From an uncultured Fodinibius sp. (GTDB lineage Bacteria > Bacteroidota > Rhodothermia > Balneolales > Balneolaceae): DNA of 64,000 nt. Positions 8,694-44,648 of the stretch are shown in pieces. The notes beneath the pieces were generated by a model. It did no database searches, had not been told where the DNA came from, and was given only the letters and a program-made list of their open reading frames with translations. Every line of letters starts with the position of its first letter. Positions within the stretch are counted from its first letter, which is position 1. The DNA is taken from NCBI GenBank assembly GCA_913056235.1, contig CAJXMW010000002.1:248001-312000 (forward strand), given 5' to 3'. A program made the translations under genes and the position numbers.

Positions 8694-8726
8694 CTCATCA
8701 GACGACAACTCCAGTCGTCAGATGAG
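8694..8726. repeat. 13-bp hairpin between convergent genes
   Basis: Arms 8694-8706 and 8714-8726 pair over 13 positions with one central A-A mismatch and a 7-base loop. There is no T-run, so it is not a standard terminator. It sits between folD and a convergent small gene and could be a dispersed palindromic repeat or a weak bidirectional terminator. Confidence 0.5.
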
Positions 8727-9059: not shown

Positions 9060-11168
9060 TTATTTCACTTCAAAACTGATAGCGGTTCCACCACCGGGCG
9101 CCATCCAGAGATCAAGAGAATCCTGGCTGGTCACTTCGTGCTGTTCGATTTCGTAGGCCGTGGGATTATCCTCCCAGTGGGCATCTTTGCCATCGCGGTA
9201 GATCGTAGCCTGATAAGTTTGACCATCATCTAAAAAGTCCAGCGACACCTTTTTTGTACGTTCATTTTCGTCGGTGACTGCGCCCAGAAACCAATTGTCA
9301 GCTCCTTTTTCTTTGCGAGCGGTAATCACATAGTCACCAATTTCTGAATTTAACACTTTCGATTCATCCCAATCCACAGCTACATCCTGGATGAACTGAA
9401 ATGCTGGGTGAAATTCATCATCTTCCGCCAGGTAATTTTCGGGTAAGTCAGCGGCCATCTGCATGGGGCTGTAAAGCACCACATACAACGCCAGCTGGTT
9501 TGCCAGTGTAGAGTGCACCTGCTCCTTCTCTCGGTACTTATCAAAAGTGATGTCAAAAATACCCGGTGTATAGTCAATGGGTCCACCAAGGACGCGGGTA
9601 AAGGGCAGAATGGTCGTGTGTTGGGGCGGCATGCCTTCGCTCCAGGCGTTGTATTCCATGCCGCGCACTCCTTCCCGTGTCATCATATTTGGATACGTTC
9701 GCCGGATACCCGTTGCCTTGATCGGTTCGTGAGCATTAACTCCGATCTGATATTTGGCCGCGGTCTTAACTACCTGACGGTAATGACGCACCATAAACTG
9801 TCCGTGATGATATTCTCCTTTCGGGATGACGCCGCCGGCATAGCCCGTTTTAACGTGGTGAACGCCCACATCCTGATAGAGTTTGAATGCTGCATCCAGC
9901 CGTGTCTGATAATGAGCAGCCTGCCCGGATGTCTCGTGGTGTCCAATGAGCGCTACATCATTTTCTTGGGCATAACTGGCTACTTCCCTGAGATCAAAGT
10001 CGGTATAGGGAGTGGTGAAATCGAAGAAACCAACCGAGTCGGTTCCCCAGAATTCCCAGCCGGTATTCCATCCTTCAATCAGCAGACCTTTAATATTTGC
10101 GCGATTGTTAAAGTCGATATACTCTTTGGCATTCTTGGTGTTGGCTCCATGTTGGGTTCCGCCTTGTTGACCGTAAGAGTCTTCTGCTCGTTCACTGTAG
10201 TTCCATGCCGTTTTGCCAATGTGCATTTCCCACCAGATACCGGTGTATTTGAGGGGTTCAATCCAGGAAGTATCATTCAGCTTGCTGGGATCATTCAGGT
10301 TTTGAAGCAGGAATGACTCCGCCAGATCGCCGGGTGTTTGTCCAACCTGTATCGTACGCCAGGGCGTAGTAAAAGGCGCTTTTGTTTTAACTTTTGTGCC
10401 ATCGGCCCAGGGGACCAATTCACTAACCAGCTTCAGGTCATCCGTAATGCCGAGCGTCATCCCGGCGTAATCTGTTAGATCGGCCTCGTGAAAGCTTAGG
10501 TAAAGCCCTTCACCCGTCTTCATGGTAACTGGTGTATTGACAGCCTGAAAATTATCGATCTGGCGATCTACACGTTCATTTTCGCTTTTAAATTCTGACG
10601 CATCCACCTCACTGACTTTGGATTGGGTGTAATTGTACTCATAGCTGTCATAGTCAGCGGGAATCCACCAAGTCTGATGATCACCGGTAAGGGCAAACTC
10701 TGTCTGCTCATTCATAATAAACACACTGTCGGCCATATTTTCCTGGGCCGGAAACTCATATCGGAATCCTATTCCGTCATCATACACGCGAAAGCGCACA
10801 TTCACCAACCGATTGGGAGCTTCGGTTTCTTGAAGGGTTATCAGTAGTTCGTTGTAGTGATTGCGGACCTCTTTTTGCTCTCCCCACACAGGTTGCCAAG
10901 TTTCATCTGCTGAGTTACTCTCAGTATTCTGGATGCGAAGACCATCCCTGAAGGCAGGTCGATCTTTGAATTCAAAGCCCAGGGCAGAGGGGTTGATAAT
11001 TTTCTCTCCTTCATAGGAAACCTTGTAGTTTGGTTGGCCATCTCCAGAGAGCGAAAAATCAACGGCAAGCTGTCCATTGGGCGATGTGACATTTGTTTGG
11101 GGATTCATATTACAGGACAATAAAAAGGATGACAAAAGGATCAACGAAAGCGCTTTCATATAGGTCAT
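9060..11168 (-). CDS. Glycoside hydrolase family 97 lipoprotein (alpha-glucosidase-like)
   Basis: 702 residues. A lipoprotein signal (LLSSFLLSCN) exports it, probably to the outer membrane or periplasm. GH97 features: an N-terminal beta-sandwich (about 25-290), then a barrel containing WWEMHIGKTAW, IKGLLIEGWNTGWE and a C-terminal beta domain. At the position where retaining GH97 enzymes have a nucleophilic Asp, this protein reads VHHVKTGYAG. Glutamates in NAHEP and GMEYNAW match the SusB-type inverting enzymes, so an inverting alpha-glucosidase is likely (family knowledge plus inference). No SusC/SusD pair is in view. The start may be ATG 11168 or ATG 11159; either keeps the signal peptide. 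Confidence 0.9.
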   Translation of the reverse strand: MTYMKALSLILLSSFLLSCNMNPQTNVTSPNGQLAVDFSLSGDGQPNYKVSYEGEKIINPSALGFEFKDRPAFRDGLRIQNTESNSADETWQPVWGEQKEVRNHYNELLITLQETEAPNRLVNVRFRVYDDGIGFRYEFPAQENMADSVFIMNEQTEFALTGDHQTWWIPADYDSYEYNYTQSKVSEVDASEFKSENERVDRQIDNFQAVNTPVTMKTGEGLYLSFHEADLTDYAGMTLGITDDLKLVSELVPWADGTKVKTKAPFTTPWRTIQVGQTPGDLAESFLLQNLNDPSKLNDTSWIEPLKYTGIWWEMHIGKTAWNYSERAEDSYGQQGGTQHGANTKNAKEYIDFNNRANIKGLLIEGWNTGWEFWGTDSVGFFDFTTPYTDFDLREVASYAQENDVALIGHHETSGQAAHYQTRLDAAFKLYQDVGVHHVKTGYAGGVIPKGEYHHGQFMVRHYRQVVKTAAKYQIGVNAHEPIKATGIRRTYPNMMTREGVRGMEYNAWSEGMPPQHTTILPFTRVLGGPIDYTPGIFDITFDKYREKEQVHSTLANQLALYVVLYSPMQMAADLPENYLAEDDEFHPAFQFIQDVAVDWDESKVLNSEIGDYVITARKEKGADNWFLGAVTDENERTKKVSLDFLDDGQTYQATIYRDGKDAHWEDNPTAYEIEQHEVTSQDSLDLWMAPGGGTAISFEVK

Positions 11169-11286
11169 AAGAAAATAGACACAGTTGATTCGGTTTTTGA
11201 GCAGGCCTTAAGATTGATCGTTTAAGAATAAAAAACAAGACTATTCACATCCCTTGAAAATCAGCCGTGGAATTCGTGAAAGTGGG

Positions 11287-11304
11287 GTGACATTAGGGTG
11301 TCAC
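11287..11304. promoter_or_regulatory. Palindrome in the GH97/small-gene divergent region
   Basis: GTGACA-TTAGGG-TGTCAC is a perfect 6+6 inverted repeat resembling CRP/FNR-family sites. It lies 52 bases before the plus-strand gene and 119 bases before the GH97 start. The gap 11169-11355 otherwise shows nothing I recognise. Regulatory role is inference. Confidence 0.3.
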
Positions 11305-11355
11305 TGATGTCAGTTATTATTGAAGTGAAGATTAATTCAACCAAGAAAACCAGCT

Positions 11356-11685
11356 ATGAATACCGCGATTAAAACTTCACAAAAGCGTCTCGACACAAAC
11401 CTGGAACCGGTGCTTCGCAAAGTGCTAAAAGAAGCAGAGAAAGAACATCGTGAACTGCAGCAGATGTTCGAACTTATGGGATGGGGAGATTTGCCCGACG
11501 AACTGAAAATGGAGATTAAAGAAGATGTAGCTGCCATGGTAGATGAGCTGCAGGGACAATATTCGAGCTGTGATGAGCATGTTGCTCGTCGGCGCCGCAG
11601 TGTAGTCCACTGGGTAGAAAGTTTCCGGGATGGTATTTGTTCGTTACAAACGGCCATCGATGCTCTGCATATCAAAAAATTGTAA
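11356..11685 (+). CDS. Small helical protein of unknown function
   Basis: 109 residues, not recognised. It is strongly charged and predicted helical throughout, with no signal peptide or membrane segment. A central EKEHRELQQMFELMGWG segment is followed by LPDELKMEIKEDVAAMVDEL. Two cysteines (SSCDEHV and DGICSLQ) flank an arginine cluster (ARRRRS). Codon use and base composition look like the neighbours. Single gene between divergent GH97 and guaB. A hemerythrin-like or DNA/RNA-binding role cannot be supported. Confidence 0.7.
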   Translation: MNTAIKTSQKRLDTNLEPVLRKVLKEAEKEHRELQQMFELMGWGDLPDELKMEIKEDVAAMVDELQGQYSSCDEHVARRRRSVVHWVESFRDGICSLQTAIDALHIKKL

Positions 11686-13381: not shown

Positions 13382-13419
13382 AACCCTGTCAGGATATAGA
13401 ATCCTGACAGGGTTTTTTA
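13382..13419 (+). terminator. guaB terminator
   Basis: A perfect 14-bp stem (13382-13395 with 13401-13414), 5-base loop, and T-run to 13418. It starts 58 bases after the guaB stop codon. Confidence 0.9.
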
Positions 13420-28842: not shown

Positions 28843-28876
28843 AAAGGTCACACTGCTCTGCAGTGTGACCTTTTTT
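28843..28876 (+). terminator. dnaJ terminator (bidirectional form)
   Basis: A perfect 14-bp stem (28843-28856 with 28860-28873), 3-base loop, and T-run. The A-run on the left arm gives a T-run on the minus strand too, so it can also stop the convergent ATP-grasp gene ending at 28898. Confidence 0.9.
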
Positions 28877-39474: not shown

Positions 39475-41238
39475 TTAGCCTGCACTTGCGGCTGCACCAC
39501 CCCCTGCAGCGCTGGCCGAGGCTCCCGCGCCACCAGCCGCACCCGGAGCTGTAGCTGCACTTGTAGCACCGAGCGTTGAAAAACTACTGGCCACGGCGGC
39601 CACCGAGCTGGTGTTCGAAGAAAAAGCTATCCATGCGATGACGGGAACGGCATTACTGTTGGTGGTAATAATATCTTCAAGCTCTTCCCCTTTGAGTCCC
39701 AGTGCCAGGGCGTAGATAAAGTGTTTGTCCAGTTTATCGGAGGACAGATTATGCTCTTTGGCGTTTTCTAGTCCTCTTTTGTAATTGTTCCACCGGTGCT
39801 TGATTTCTTGGCCTTTTTCTGTGGGACGAATAATGGCCATTGAAAGAGTAGCCGCAACCACAGTCGTTATAAAGGCAAGAAACCAGCTTAACGGAGCAAA
39901 TGTTTCTTTTCCGGCATATGCAGCAACTCCAAAAATGATGAAAAACAATATAAGTTGGAGTCCGGCATTCCAGTAGGCCCCGGTATAACTCTGCAGATCA
40001 ATCCAGTCCTGATCGAAGCAATAGTTTTTTAATTTTTTTGACCATTTTGAAAACCAATCAGAAACTTTTGAGTCCTGTCCATCAAAAATCTTATGCAGCT
40101 TTTGTCGATCATCGCTGAGCCGTAGCTCTACAAAGCTGACAATGTCTTTCTCCCAGTCAAGCAGATCTTCCTGTAGGTCTTGCTCGGTCCGATGCACAGA
40201 AAATGTGGGGTCGTCATCCTCAAAGAAACCTTCTTCTGGCTCTTCTTCTTTGATTTTAAAGTATCCTTTCCGGGCAAGGTCGAGCACGGTTGATATCAGA
40301 TGCACGCTAGTAACACTTCTATTATTCAACAGCCAGCCGATCGCTGCGGGGCGATGCCGATCCGGAATCATAATAGTTTCGTGGGAGGATAACCGGGAGG
40401 TTGAATGCCGTTTCCCATACTTGCGGTAAAAGTATAAAAACAAGAAGACTGCAATGACCGAAACCGCAATATTTACTTGTTGACTTATTTCGTGCCAATA
40501 TGCGTTGCGAGCCCGACGTTCAGCCCGTTTTTGCTGGTATATTTCTTCTTCCTGTCGGACCTGGCTGAGAGTAAAATCCTGATTTGTTACTTGAGGGCTG
40601 GCTAACACAGAAGTTGGAAACAAAGCACGGACTTTGGCAACATCGTCATCATCAATGTTAGTGCCGCGGATCGTAAATGCACCAGATGTTTTCGATAGCT
40701 CAAAATGTCCTTTGGGGCCGCGGGTCCACCCATGCAGCGAATCTGTAGCAACTGATTCAGGTAGGGTAATCGCAATATTCAGCCGCTTGGTAGATTTGTC
40801 ACGGTCATCAGACAGGTAGTTCCAGAAAAACTGTGTCCACTCGGGACCTACGGTCAGGGCATCCTCAAGGGTATAGGAGATAGTGAATGTACGCTGCTCA
40901 TCCTCAGCCTCATAGTACCAAGTCAGTTTGATTGCCTCATCATTATGTGCAACGCTAAAAGTTCCCGTGGCTTCGCTGTTCTCGTTTATATAGGAGGTAC
41001 CACCTTCCGAAATTTGTATATCCCTGATAGCCGAAAATCCTTGGCGCGGCAGCTGGTATTCGGCCCATGAAAATGAACCATCAAAATCATAGGTAAGGTG
41101 TTCGGTGATTTGCACTGTGCCATCCTCATTTATCGAAACCTCTACCCGAATTTCCGGGATCTCATAATCCTTGCCAGAGCTGCTCAAAAATCCCAGACAA
41201 AATATTACAGTACTCAGTACAAGAGTTCTTAGCCACAT
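39475..41238 (-). CDS. DUF2207 membrane protein
   Basis: 587 residues. N-terminal signal peptide, then the extracytoplasmic DUF2207 domain (about 25-200, with EVSINEDGTVQITEHLTYDF), a membrane helix near 250, a cytosolic region, two more helices near 430-475, and a C-terminal tail rich in Gly, Ala and Ser (the usual Gly-rich end of this family, here with more Ala). Function unknown; found widely as a predicted membrane protein (YciQ-like). A REP-like palindrome sits 17 bases before the start codon, so expression may be affected by the neighbouring mobile unit. Confidence 0.85.
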   Translation of the reverse strand: MWLRTLVLSTVIFCLGFLSSSGKDYEIPEIRVEVSINEDGTVQITEHLTYDFDGSFSWAEYQLPRQGFSAIRDIQISEGGTSYINENSEATGTFSVAHNDEAIKLTWYYEAEDEQRTFTISYTLEDALTVGPEWTQFFWNYLSDDRDKSTKRLNIAITLPESVATDSLHGWTRGPKGHFELSKTSGAFTIRGTNIDDDDVAKVRALFPTSVLASPQVTNQDFTLSQVRQEEEIYQQKRAERRARNAYWHEISQQVNIAVSVIAVFLFLYFYRKYGKRHSTSRLSSHETIMIPDRHRPAAIGWLLNNRSVTSVHLISTVLDLARKGYFKIKEEEPEEGFFEDDDPTFSVHRTEQDLQEDLLDWEKDIVSFVELRLSDDRQKLHKIFDGQDSKVSDWFSKWSKKLKNYCFDQDWIDLQSYTGAYWNAGLQLILFFIIFGVAAYAGKETFAPLSWFLAFITTVVAATLSMAIIRPTEKGQEIKHRWNNYKRGLENAKEHNLSSDKLDKHFIYALALGLKGEELEDIITTNSNAVPVIAWIAFSSNTSSVAAVASSFSTLGATSAATAPGAAGGAGASASAAGGGAAASAG

Positions 41239-41254
41239 AATATAACAGGTCGGT

Positions 41255-41291
41255 TAATTGATGGCATCACTCTAAGTGATGCCATCAATTA
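41255..41291. repeat. REP-like palindrome, copy 1 (downstream of the transposase)
   Basis: A perfect 16-bp stem (41255-41270 with 41276-41291) around TCTAA. Its 27-base core (41260-41286) is identical to copy 2 at 41889-41915. The outer five pairs (TAATT/AATTA) differ from copy 2 but still pair. Confidence 0.9.
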
Positions 41292-41311
41292 TCAATTAGT
41301 TTCAATTACTT

Positions 41312-41914
41312 TTATTCAAATGTTACACTTTGAATAACTTCGTGATCAGTCTCGATATTTTCTTGATGAAATTTTAAAAAAGCTTCTTCTCCGTTAAACC
41401 ATTCTAAAACTTCCGTTCTATTTAAGCTGGTTTTAGATTTTGATGTTAAAGCATTATAAGAACTCCATTTATAATTCATTGTATTCTGAAATCCATGATG
41501 AATTGGATTTCTGTGGATATAGTACACAAGCCATATTAACTGATTCTGATTACGAATTTTTCTCTTTTGAAAATTCTTTTGGAACAGACTCCCAGTTCTA
41601 TTCTCTTGTTTATTTATAGCTTGAGAATAGGAGATAAACAATCTCCTGAATTTTTCACTAACTGACGAACTATTTTCCAAATCCTTTTTAATACCTATTA
41701 AAAAGTGAAAATGATTGGGAAGCAAGCAGTAGGCAAAAGTATCAATAGCTTCATTTAAATATTTTTTATATCGGTTTAAAAAGAATTGGTAGTTTTTAGA
41801 TTTATAGAACAGTTTTTCCTTGTTGTTGCCTCTATTGTAAATGTGATAATATTCGCCTTTTGAGAACATATGTTGAAAATTATTGAAAGATGGCATCACT
41901 CTAAGTGATGCCAT
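41312..41914 (-). CDS. REP-associated tyrosine transposase (Y1, RAYT)
   Basis: 200 residues at most. The Y1_Tnp (IS200-like) fold is visible: EYYHIYNRGN at the first strand, the HUH motif as LLPNHFHFLIG, and a C-terminal helix SNQLIWLVYYIHRNPIHHGF holding the candidate catalytic tyrosine (YYIHRNP, the RAYT signature). The tail WSSYNALTS is also typical. Two in-frame ATGs (41914 and 41896) lie inside the palindrome itself; a third at 41869 begins MFSKGEYYHIYN and is the most family-like start. AT-rich compared with neighbours, suggesting acquisition. RAYTs nick single-stranded REP hairpins and are thought to spread them. Confidence 0.9.
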   Translation of the reverse strand: MASLRVMPSFNNFQHMFSKGEYYHIYNRGNNKEKLFYKSKNYQFFLNRYKKYLNEAIDTFAYCLLPNHFHFLIGIKKDLENSSSVSEKFRRLFISYSQAINKQENRTGSLFQKNFQKRKIRNQNQLIWLVYYIHRNPIHHGFQNTMNYKWSSYNALTSKSKTSLNRTEVLEWFNGEEAFLKFHQENIETDHEVIQSVTFE

Positions 41915-41918
41915 CTTT
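41886..41918. repeat. REP-like palindrome, copy 2 (over the transposase start)
   Basis: A perfect 14-bp stem (41886-41899 with 41905-41918) around TCTAA. Same core as copy 1; the outer three pairs are AAA/TTT. It covers two candidate start codons of the transposase, so a hairpin in the mRNA would hide them. Confidence 0.9.
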
Positions 41919-41930
41919 ATCTTTTATTCT

Positions 41931-44648
41931 CTATTCTTTAATAACCCTGAATCCGGTATAACGATTTGGGGCTGTCTTAGTTTCACTACGTTCATCGACG
42001 AAACTTACGGCCGAATATCCATAAGTGTCCCGATCTGAACCTGAGGCCCATTCGGCAGCATTTCCGCCCAGGTCATACACGTGAGCATTACCAATTTTGA
42101 TACTCTTGTAAGCCCCGACTTCTTTTAGCAACGTATGATCAAGCTTCTCCAGCTTTTGTCGAAATTCCGGTATCTCATCGAGGGTAATGTCATAGCCTGC
42201 CCAATAGTTTAGCGTATTTTCAGAGGCGGCCACTTTGCGCGCCTGTTGATTCAATTTTTTAGCCTCCTCAGCATTCGGAAGCCGATAGGTTTCACCGGTC
42301 TGTTTATTAAGCCAGTTGATGTATTGGGTAGCTTTCTCTTTGCTAATGCCGGTTACAGGATAGTTAGCACGGACTTCCGGATAGCTGTGACTTTGATCAA
42401 AATCTGCATATTGTGCATTTGTGACTTCGAACCGTCCGATTGATGTAGAGTCTTTTTTGATGGAAACTGTTTCAGGGATAAGAATACCATTATGCATTAC
42501 GCCATACATGCCTTCAGCGGTTTGGGCCTTGTCTTTTTGCAGGAGCTCCGCAATGGGACTTTCTTCCTTAAAGGTTTCATTTTCGGCTTCATAAGTACCA
42601 AACAGGTGCTTTTCGAACCACCGTATTTCTTCCTTCATCTTACGCGTTTGATGAGTCACCTTTTGCAGCCCATGCGGTTGATCGGGGAACCAAAGGAAAC
42701 GGACCGGTGCCTTGTCAATCTGTTGTAGGGCTCGGTAGTATTCCCAACCCTGATCCCGAGGCACAGCGCGATCCTTACTGCCATGAAATATAATGGTGGG
42801 GGTTTGAACCTTTTCCATCTCAAATAGCGGCGATTTCTTTACGTACGTTTCGTTGAATATTTTGCCGTTGGTATCATCCCAGGGAGCACCGCCGAAATAG
42901 CTTTGATCAAAAGAAACCCCGAACGCGCAGGTGCCGTAGTCGGAGGTCCAGTTGACATCACCGGCACCCGGAGCAGCAACTTTAAACATATCGGGATGCT
43001 TGACGGTGAGCATCGTCGTCAGGATAGCCCCGTTCGACCAGCCTTTGACCCCCATGGAATCGGGATCTACTTTTCCTTCATCAACCAGTTTTTCTACACC
43101 GGAAATGATATCGGGCAGTTCGTATTCGTAATAGTGTCCTTTGATGGATTCTACAAATTCCTGCCCGTGATTGGATGAGCCGTGATAGTTGGGCTGGAGG
43201 ACAAAGGCTCCTTTCTGGGCCATAATGTTGTTAAAGTCTGTCCACGACTCATTCCATCGATCCAGATCTACGCCAGAGGGGCCACCGTGAATGGTGACAA
43301 CAAGGGGATAGGATTTGCCTTCCTCGTAGTCATGTGGATAATACAGGATGCCGGTAATTTCATCATCAAGGGCACCCGTCCAGGTGATCACCTCTGTTTG
43401 GGCTTTCTTTTTCTTGTCCAGGTAATTATTGAGTTCAATAACTTCCTCACCTTCGGGGATCGTAACCGATCGTCGTTCTTTTTTGAGTTCTGTCAGTCGG
43501 TATTGGGGTGGAGTAGAGGCCGTCGAATAGACATAGACCATCTTTTTATGATCTTCTCCCACTGATGTCACAGTCACATGTTCATCCTTCGAGCCGGCAT
43601 CTACCGATTTTTTTGTCCATTGGTCGCCATCTTTTTGCAGGTAGGCCAGCTTGATAGTAGCGCCGTTGGCCAGTCCAACCATCACATCGTTACCAAAGAC
43701 GTCAAATCCGGAACCGAGCCCCCAGTCCCATTCGAGAGGTACTTTTTGGGCCTCATCTTGTCCCAAAGAGTAATAGTGCAACAGGCTGATGCCTGCGCCA
43801 TTCCATTTGGGATTTGAGGACTGGACGGATACAAAATAAAAGCCGCTGTTATCTTTAGTGAATTCAAAATTGCCGGGCGTCTGGTATCCCTCAGTTAGAA
43901 TCTGCTGTTTGGTTCCTTTTTCTAGATTCCAAAGGTAGTATTTTGGTTTTGGATTGGCGTCTGCCGTGTAGTCTGGACTCATAATATGGGAGCTTACAAG
44001 CCATTTCCCATCCCCAGAAATTTCGTATTCTCCCACCGGGTATTCGTTGTCGGTAAGACGCATAATTTCTTTCTCTTCAACATCAAAAGAGTAGATGCGG
44101 CTGGGTTTGAAATGGGCCGTATCTTCTACGACCACGGTGTTATCTTTTTGTTCTTCCAGCTTTTGCTCGTAGAGTGTTTTGCCTTCAGTGGACTCAAAAG
44201 CCAGTTTCTGTTTTCCCATCCATTGTATGTCAGAAATGCCTGTTTTAAATTCATGAACTTCGTAAGGTTCCCCGCCATAGGTACTCATTGCCCAGAGTTT
44301 CTTGCCTTCTTCACGCGAGGATAGAAAATAAATAGTTTCGCCGTCACTGGAAAAAAGCGGATTGTGATCCGACTCATCTCCGCGCGTCAACTGAATAGTC
44401 TTGAACTTCCCATCTTCTTTGACGTCGAGGCGGGTCAGGTACAAGTCACTTTCATTGCTATCTTTTTCGCGACTGGGTTGGGTTTTCACCCACACAATAG
44501 ATTTTCCATCAGGTGAAAATGTGAGTTCTGATGCCCGTTTTTGATTTATGACATCCTCAACGGTCCATTTGTCGCTCTGCCCAAAGAGGCTAGAAACATT
44601 CAATAACAAACAAAAAGTCAGGATAGAGATTGAGTAAAGTGTTCTCAT
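41931..44648 (-). CDS. S9 prolyl-oligopeptidase-family peptidase fused to a SUMF1/FGE-like domain
   Basis: 905 residues. Signal peptide ending near SSLFGQS; beta-propeller (about 25-420) with TolB/PD40-like blades (LTFSPDGKSIVWVKT, FSSDGETIYFLSS); S9 catalytic domain with Ser in GWSNG (near 536), Asp in HGSKDRAVP (near 624) and His in PDQPHGLQ (near 659). After about residue 700 the sequence has the order of a SUMF1/formylglycine-generating fold: IGRFEVTNAQYADF, YPVTGISKEKATQYINWLNK, GETYRLPNAEEA, VYDLGGNAAEWASG and TGFRVIKE. The cysteines needed for formylglycine synthesis are not present in the usual place, so the tail is probably a binding domain. Likely a periplasmic or surface peptidase. 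Monocistronic. Confidence 0.9.
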   Translation of the reverse strand: MRTLYSISILTFCLLLNVSSLFGQSDKWTVEDVINQKRASELTFSPDGKSIVWVKTQPSREKDSNESDLYLTRLDVKEDGKFKTIQLTRGDESDHNPLFSSDGETIYFLSSREEGKKLWAMSTYGGEPYEVHEFKTGISDIQWMGKQKLAFESTEGKTLYEQKLEEQKDNTVVVEDTAHFKPSRIYSFDVEEKEIMRLTDNEYPVGEYEISGDGKWLVSSHIMSPDYTADANPKPKYYLWNLEKGTKQQILTEGYQTPGNFEFTKDNSGFYFVSVQSSNPKWNGAGISLLHYYSLGQDEAQKVPLEWDWGLGSGFDVFGNDVMVGLANGATIKLAYLQKDGDQWTKKSVDAGSKDEHVTVTSVGEDHKKMVYVYSTASTPPQYRLTELKKERRSVTIPEGEEVIELNNYLDKKKKAQTEVITWTGALDDEITGILYYPHDYEEGKSYPLVVTIHGGPSGVDLDRWNESWTDFNNIMAQKGAFVLQPNYHGSSNHGQEFVESIKGHYYEYELPDIISGVEKLVDEGKVDPDSMGVKGWSNGAILTTMLTVKHPDMFKVAAPGAGDVNWTSDYGTCAFGVSFDQSYFGGAPWDDTNGKIFNETYVKKSPLFEMEKVQTPTIIFHGSKDRAVPRDQGWEYYRALQQIDKAPVRFLWFPDQPHGLQKVTHQTRKMKEEIRWFEKHLFGTYEAENETFKEESPIAELLQKDKAQTAEGMYGVMHNGILIPETVSIKKDSTSIGRFEVTNAQYADFDQSHSYPEVRANYPVTGISKEKATQYINWLNKQTGETYRLPNAEEAKKLNQQARKVAASENTLNYWAGYDITLDEIPEFRQKLEKLDHTLLKEVGAYKSIKIGNAHVYDLGGNAAEWASGSDRDTYGYSAVSFVDERSETKTAPNRYTGFRVIKE

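Follow-up and report, generated by a model that had tools for sequence, protein, structure and literature searches.

The locus described here lies in a window of 64,000 nucleotides, the whole stretch of DNA that was analysed, and holds a gene for a small Y1 HUH protein of the RAYT/TnpA_REP type with a hairpin at either end (Table 1). The unit stands between a DUF2207 gene and a gene encoding an S9 peptidase with an FGE-sulfatase domain, as the original prediction had placed it, and all three genes are found on the same strand. It is also AT-rich as claimed, with 29.2% GC compared with 46.5% in the window.

Table 1: Features of the RAYT locus and its two flanking genes (positions in the window).
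Feature	Position	Strand	Remarks
Left hairpin, 33 nt, perfect	41257..41289	no strand	perfect pairing reaches 41255-41291
Right hairpin, 33 nt, perfect	41886..41918	no strand	overlaps the first ATGs of the ORF
RAYT / TnpA_REP-like Y1 HUH protein, 200 aa	41312..41914	minus	HUH residues 68-70, catalytic Tyr132
DUF2207 membrane protein, flanking gene	39475..41238	minus	context
S9 peptidase with FGE-sulfatase domain, flanking gene	41931..44648	minus	context

Both hairpins are built around the same 27-nt core, GATGGCATCACTCTAAGTGATGCCATC, which is present at 41260-41286 and again at 41889-41915 with 100% identity and in direct orientation; judged by the loop, the two hairpins have the same orientation as well. 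Outside the cores one copy carries TAATT/AATTA and the other AAA/TTT, and both still pair as predicted, giving perfect hairpins of 17 bp (left, at its full extent) and 15 bp (right), each with a 3-nt loop. When aligned in register, each measures 33 nt (15 bp with a 3-nt loop), and they differ only at the stem pairs 2 and 3 (TA,TA versus AT,AT), both compensated. DNA folding of both strands of each hairpin gave -16.0 to -17.9 kcal/mol (z -9.0 to -10.5), a stability reached by 0 of 200 shuffles. The two copies are the only mispair-free 33-mers in the whole window, and zero 33-mers with 0 or 1 mispair arose when the full window was simulated ten times under a first-order Markov model. Rfam at gathering scores gave zero matches between 41000 and 42200.

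The claim that the hairpin has been preserved holds insofar as it was kept and two of its pairs are compensated. The compensating changes alone are no proof of selection keeping the hairpin, as hairpin-templated correction gives the same pattern, and their source may be either selection for recognition or template switching within the hairpin.

The RAYT protein

The first two ATGs of the ORF fall within the right hairpin and in the AlphaFold model (mean pLDDT 89.9) residues 1-14 have a pLDDT <50, so that according to the model the ATG at 41869 (residue 16) is more likely the working start. As the model shows no structure for residues 1-14 and the matches of 15 aligned relatives start at residues 7 to 20, both hairpins probably stand just outside the RAYT gene. 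In a comparison of the model with the PDB the best match was 4er8, TnpA_REP with its REP hairpin (E 3.9e-8), followed by the IS608/ISDra2 transposases. A profile search also matched 4er8 (E 1.3e-5), and a single-sequence search of the PDB sequences gave zero matches at E 0.001.

A search with RAYT models, proposed earlier as a check, identified the NCBIfam family REP-associated tyrosine transposase (NF047646) with E 3.9e-17 and 62.5 bits, which is under the curated cut-off of 80, a naming threshold and no biological feature. The score for Pfam Y1_Tnp is 21.5, just under the cut-off of 23, and both of these low scores are counted against our main reading. We aligned the protein with 15 relatives taken from stop-free matches (alignment A2), and all 16 proteins match the NCBIfam RAYT model while 6 of them match Y1_Tnp (E<=1e-3). 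The catalytic residues H68, H70 and Y132 are invariant in 16/16 proteins, as are N and P in the motifs NHFH (H68, H70) and Y132-IHR-NP and also S151 and S152, the SS motif of the proximal tail. With its HUH motif and Y---NP motif the protein falls under class 2 TnpA_Y1 as that class is defined in PMC6006769.

Between the source genome (G000) and its relative G004 the dN is 0.351 for the RAYT, 0.341 for DUF2207 and 0.162 for the peptidase, with synonymous sites saturated or nearly so. The ORF is intact, and its degree of constraint is close to that of DUF2207. The RAYT is single-copy in the source genome; further RAYT homologues are present there, some of them broken, and protein search found these other homologues at 27-51% identity per piece.

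We consider it likely that the unit is a REPtron-like pair: a Y1 HUH nuclease from the RAYT/TnpA_REP family, present once and inherited vertically, and the REP-like hairpins cognate to it. The RAYT-REP pair in minimal form suggested by the original prediction is supported by the match to 4er8 and by the association of hairpin and protein described below; it has to be amended in that the hairpins are not canonical GTAG REPs, and our verdict is a minimal RAYT-hairpin pair without GTAG guide. The two 33-nt hairpins are the probable targets of the RAYT.

Hairpins at RAYT genes of other genomes

At least one RAYT match was found in 27 of 58 genomes, source genome included, and many RAYT neighbourhoods show hairpins that agree in size but not in sequence. 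Of the palindromes with arms >=13 near 34 RAYT loci, counted by hand, 18 of 27 measure exactly 33 nt; in a 400 kb sample of the source genome this is true for one out of nine palindromes, some of the nine belonging to the same family. From 57 RAYT loci examined 35 have an intact ORF; the other 22 did not yield an ORF >=100 aa in which the two motifs are placed as expected and were dropped, and some of them are possibly intact. Hairpins with <=3 mispairs lie upstream at 16, downstream at 14 and inside at 9 of the 35 intact loci, and four control windows gave 0, 2, 1 and 1 of 35. Both ends carry a hairpin at 13/35 and neither end at 18/35 loci. About half of the clade's intact RAYT genes are bordered on at least one side by a 33-nt hairpin, and the 18 loci that are hairpin-less at both ends count against our main reading.

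The hairpins at the two ends of a locus differ from each other by a median of 4 nt (13 loci, range 0 to 24) compared with 21 between loci, and 0 of 5000 random re-pairings of the ends were as good as the observed one. Hairpin divergence tracks protein divergence (Spearman -0.507, 17 loci, 1/5000 permutations). Hairpins are present in 24 of the 27 genomes with a RAYT versus 9 of the 31 without one (Fisher p 4e-6, shared ancestry uncorrected), and these nine genomes without a detected RAYT are counted against the main reading as well.

The homologous genes of some relatives have REP-like hairpins inserted in frame; 33 nt correspond to 11 codons. The locus L066 (G037:C165, about 9389-11388) contains a tandem pair of near-identical RAYT genes with a period of about 983 nt, and the same 33-nt hairpin stands between, outside and inside them. 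A link to CGTC-tagged REPs was dropped, as the CGTC-/CATC-like hairpins of some other RAYTs (L018, L138 and L142) differ from the published families in stem/loop size.

Structure of the 33-mers

For the analysis of the stem we used 32 sequences hand-chosen from loci with <=3 mispairs (set A1), and the 98.3% pairing of the long stem in this set is thus partly by construction. Its covariation score is 0.851 versus 0.202 in shuffles (0/500 reach the observed value), and double changes were counted in 146 cells compared with 37.4 in shuffles. Double changes occur in 12 of the 15 pairs, which is not beyond shuffles since 55/500 reach that count.

Each 15-nt arm is itself near-palindromic (6-3-6). 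In the hand-chosen set (n=32) the 12 quarter pairs are 87.0% paired, while shuffles reach 69.3% and slid versions 25-61%; their covariation is 0.495 versus 0.194 in shuffles. In a collection of 61 filtered sites, chosen on four fixed letters and <=2 mispairs, at least four of the six mini-pairs are kept at 59 sites, the filter itself having fixed some of those letters. The window copies show 15/15 long pairs but 5/6 and 4/6 mini-pairs, and the long stem is better kept than the mini-stems.

GTAG or GTGG was seen within 0-3 nt of the foot at 1 of the 122 feet of the filtered sites and at none of the feet of the window copies. The search for a guide or cleavage motif within 12 nt of the 61 filtered sites found none, with no position above 0.22 bits. 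The window hairpins are non-canonical REPs without GT[AG]G.

A tentative and in our eyes rather doubtful extension of the main reading would be to regard the 33-nt unit as a miniature REPIN of fixed size, in which two 15-nt mini-REPs (6-bp stem, 3-nt loop) are fused head to head over 3 nt, and the DNA could therefore form either one 15-bp hairpin or two small ones. The RAYTs would read their own stem without a guide tetranucleotide, protein and hairpin would coevolve pairwise, and loss of the gene would leave a one-hairpin scar.

Hairpins elsewhere in the source genome

The core has two copies in the 3.97 Mb source genome at up to 3 mismatches. This hairpin type is unspread in its own genome, which is counted against the main reading. 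A covariance model of the 33-nt hairpins found at least 26 distinct places there at E<1e-3, a lower bound, as the right window copy and the hairpin at window position 13382 are included and the left copy and the hairpins at C1:1490328 are left out. At 6 of 15 fetched source-genome sites the type AAC[CT]CTGAAAGG[AG]TT is present.

Three further hairpins in the window deserve mention. At 13382-13414, directly behind an IMP-dehydrogenase-like gene, stands a solo 33-nt member of the hairpin family (AACCCTGTCAGG type), and a T run comes after it; this REP-like hairpin may act as a terminator. The hairpin at 28843-28873 lies between convergent genes, one of them DnaJ-like, fits the 33-nt model weakly (15.7 bits) and is probably a two-way terminator. 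The third one, at 8694-8726, is an imperfect 33-mer (CTCATCAGACGAC..GTCGTCAGATGAG) resembling the hairpins beside another RAYT of the source genome (L009). Elsewhere in this genome (L010, G000:C1, about 1490328) the match to a RAYT is interrupted by four stop codons, and perfect palindromes of 37 and 43 nt, whose differences are compensated, still frame this relic.

Comparison with known systems

Subclass 2.6 of TnpA_REP as described by Quentin et al. 2018 (PMC6006769), who equate it with RAYT group 5 of Bertels 2017, is mostly found in Bacteroidetes, and its flanking hairpins are atypical, lacking GT[AG]G. The window RAYT shares with it the class 2 Y---NP signature, the SS in the tail, the framing of the gene by hairpins without GT[AG]G and the low copy number. 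It differs in its motifs (NHFH, FQ and YIHRNP compared with the printed NH[LIV]H, WQ and YIH[QN]NP), in the HUH-Y distance (65 compared with a median of 82) and in its hairpin, which lacks copies elsewhere in its own genome, although G004 has such copies. As not all motifs printed in PMC6006769 fit, we see subclass 2.6 as the nearest one and file the protein as RAYT/TnpA_REP. Subclass 2.4 (PMC6006769) resembles our case in the in-frame REP-like hairpins within the genes of some relatives and in having NHFH among its HUH variants, but the window gene has no internal hairpin, carries YIHRNP and not YIxNNP, and no GT[AG]G double foot is present on its hairpins.

With the RAYTs of E. coli and Pseudomonas and their GTAG REPs/REPINs (PMC8049555, PMC8266576) the unit has in common the TnpA_REP HUH fold, cognate hairpins, the apparent vertical inheritance and hairpins that are commoner where the gene is present. 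Unlike these it has no GTAG guide, its hairpins are perfect and 33 nt long, and only two copies of the type exist in the genome, whereas many dispersed copies are seen for canonical REPs. In TIRtrons/TIRYT (PMC3733652) the repeats on both sides of the Y1 gene are likewise different from GTAG REPs. Those repeats are terminal inverted repeats, many with GGGGWSAS, in contrast to the window, where either copy forms a hairpin of its own and the pair is in direct orientation by its loops. IS200/IS605 elements occur in multiple near-identical copies or at varied sites, unlike the window RAYT with its single copy and the same junction in G004. The unit belongs to RAYT/TnpA_REP, an already-known system; the fixed 33-nt length, the nested symmetry and the solo remnant are details that we did not find described in the accessible parts of the literature, PMC6006769 included.

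History of the junction

A DNA search recovered the peptidase side of the junction in four genomes of the genus, and the comparison with relatives recommended by the original prediction revealed a RAYT with hairpins, a solo hairpin and neither of them. In G004 the junction holds a RAYT with 63.9% identity to the window RAYT and three hairpins of 33 nt, of which one contains a single mispair. The junction of G010 has one hairpin with two mispairs and the RAYT gene is absent; this hairpin is identical at 31/33 positions to the outer hairpin of G004 and has the same loop. In G002 the 73 nt between the anchors contain neither RAYT nor hairpin. The hairpin type was detected in 4 of 58 genomes, all from the same genus (G000, G004, G007 and G010). 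G004 has seven matches to the hairpin-type pattern, five of them away from the RAYT gene, and G007 has one copy, with the RAYT undetected; the five dispersed copies and the G007 copy are intergenic or at the edge of a gene (ORF reading). No target site or duplication can be claimed, the intergenic DNA of G000, G002, G004 and G010 being too diverged, and among 18 local flank alignments the fewest shuffles reaching the observed score were 21 of 300. A scan of contigs for relatives, a method that detects close relatives only, confirmed 2 of 131 candidate stretches.

The trees of both flanking proteins have the topology ((G000,G002),(G004,G010)) with supports of 95 to 100. Because of these trees we favour as the simplest account one gain, with the RAYT present in the common ancestor of G000 and G004, and two losses, one of which would have left a single hairpin; the solo hairpin of G010 is most simply taken as the remnant of this RAYT loss. 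The RAYT-hairpin pair looks like an old, inherited one and no fresh jumping gene. Its low GC content is odd for an old resident and is counted against the main reading.

The original prediction had named two observations that would speak against it. The first one, a palindrome found only here, applies to the core with its two copies in its own genome, and related copies are dispersed in the sister species G004. The second, a palindrome at the same locus in a relative without transposase history, formally describes G010, where the flanking-gene trees favour a remnant of loss. In our judgement the two do not overturn the reading as a RAYT-hairpin pair.

One could also assume separate arrivals, with a resident junction hairpin as landing site at which G000 and G004 gained their RAYT units independently. 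The close similarity of the solo G010 hairpin to the outer one of G004, the GC content of the unit far below that of its surroundings and the lack of any trace in G002, the sister of G000, would agree with this. On the other hand, the RAYT identity between G000 and G004 falls between the values of the flanking genes (57.1% and, for the peptidase, 76.2%), and among 92 family genomes the G004 RAYT is the nearest homologue with 64% versus 51% for the next, which makes independent gains unlikely.

Proposed function of the pair

Returning to the inherited REPtron-like pair, we take TnpA_REP as analogue for binding a folded single strand and cutting beside it (PMC8266576). The RAYT would bind the extruded single-stranded hairpin, e.g. 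on the lagging-strand template, cleave beside it through Tyr132 and rejoin the strands, and occasionally this may copy hairpins elsewhere. In the source genome such copying of the window type would never have happened or would have been erased. The gene might be kept for a host use of single-strand DNA processing and not for its own transposition. In PMC8049555 RAYTs are seen as domesticated, vertically inherited and duplicating REPINs, and the dispersal of hairpins without dispersal of the gene in G004 as well as the constrained ORF fit this view.

Another explanation would be that the hairpins serve only to end transcription or to stabilise mRNA, beside an unrelated, decaying transposase gene. 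Three terminator-like sites were found in 41000-42200 compared with a shuffle mean of 0.6, the right hairpin being terminator-like on both strands, and the family hairpin at 13382-13414 has the matching position behind a gene and ahead of a T run. However, the left hairpin was not scored as a terminator, and the fixed 33-nt size near RAYTs, the matching ends per locus, the co-variation with the protein and the intact ORF with its DUF2207-like constraint speak against it as well; we give this explanation only a small chance. The right hairpin may in addition work as a terminator, which would not exclude the main reading. Very improbable is an active IS200-like insertion sequence, whose left and right ends would be the hairpins and which would excise and insert as a whole single-stranded unit: the Y1 HUH fold related to IS608, the equally oriented hairpins at both ends and the filled, solo and empty junctions within one genus agree with it, but there is one copy in the genome, with the other homologues found by protein search at 27-51% identity per piece, the site is common to G004 with its 76% identical peptidase, and homologues are few in plasmid (11/72,556) and phage records (1/50,697), none with >=60% identity.

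Conclusion

The locus bears on the question why bacteria keep RAYTs. The clade offers many gene-hairpin pairs with one geometry and different sequences, and the stem positions read by the protein should therefore be findable by matching changes in protein and DNA. As the junction is found filled, solo and empty within one genus, the loss of the RAYT should be datable, and the two-copy state separates a possible host service from the spread of repeats.
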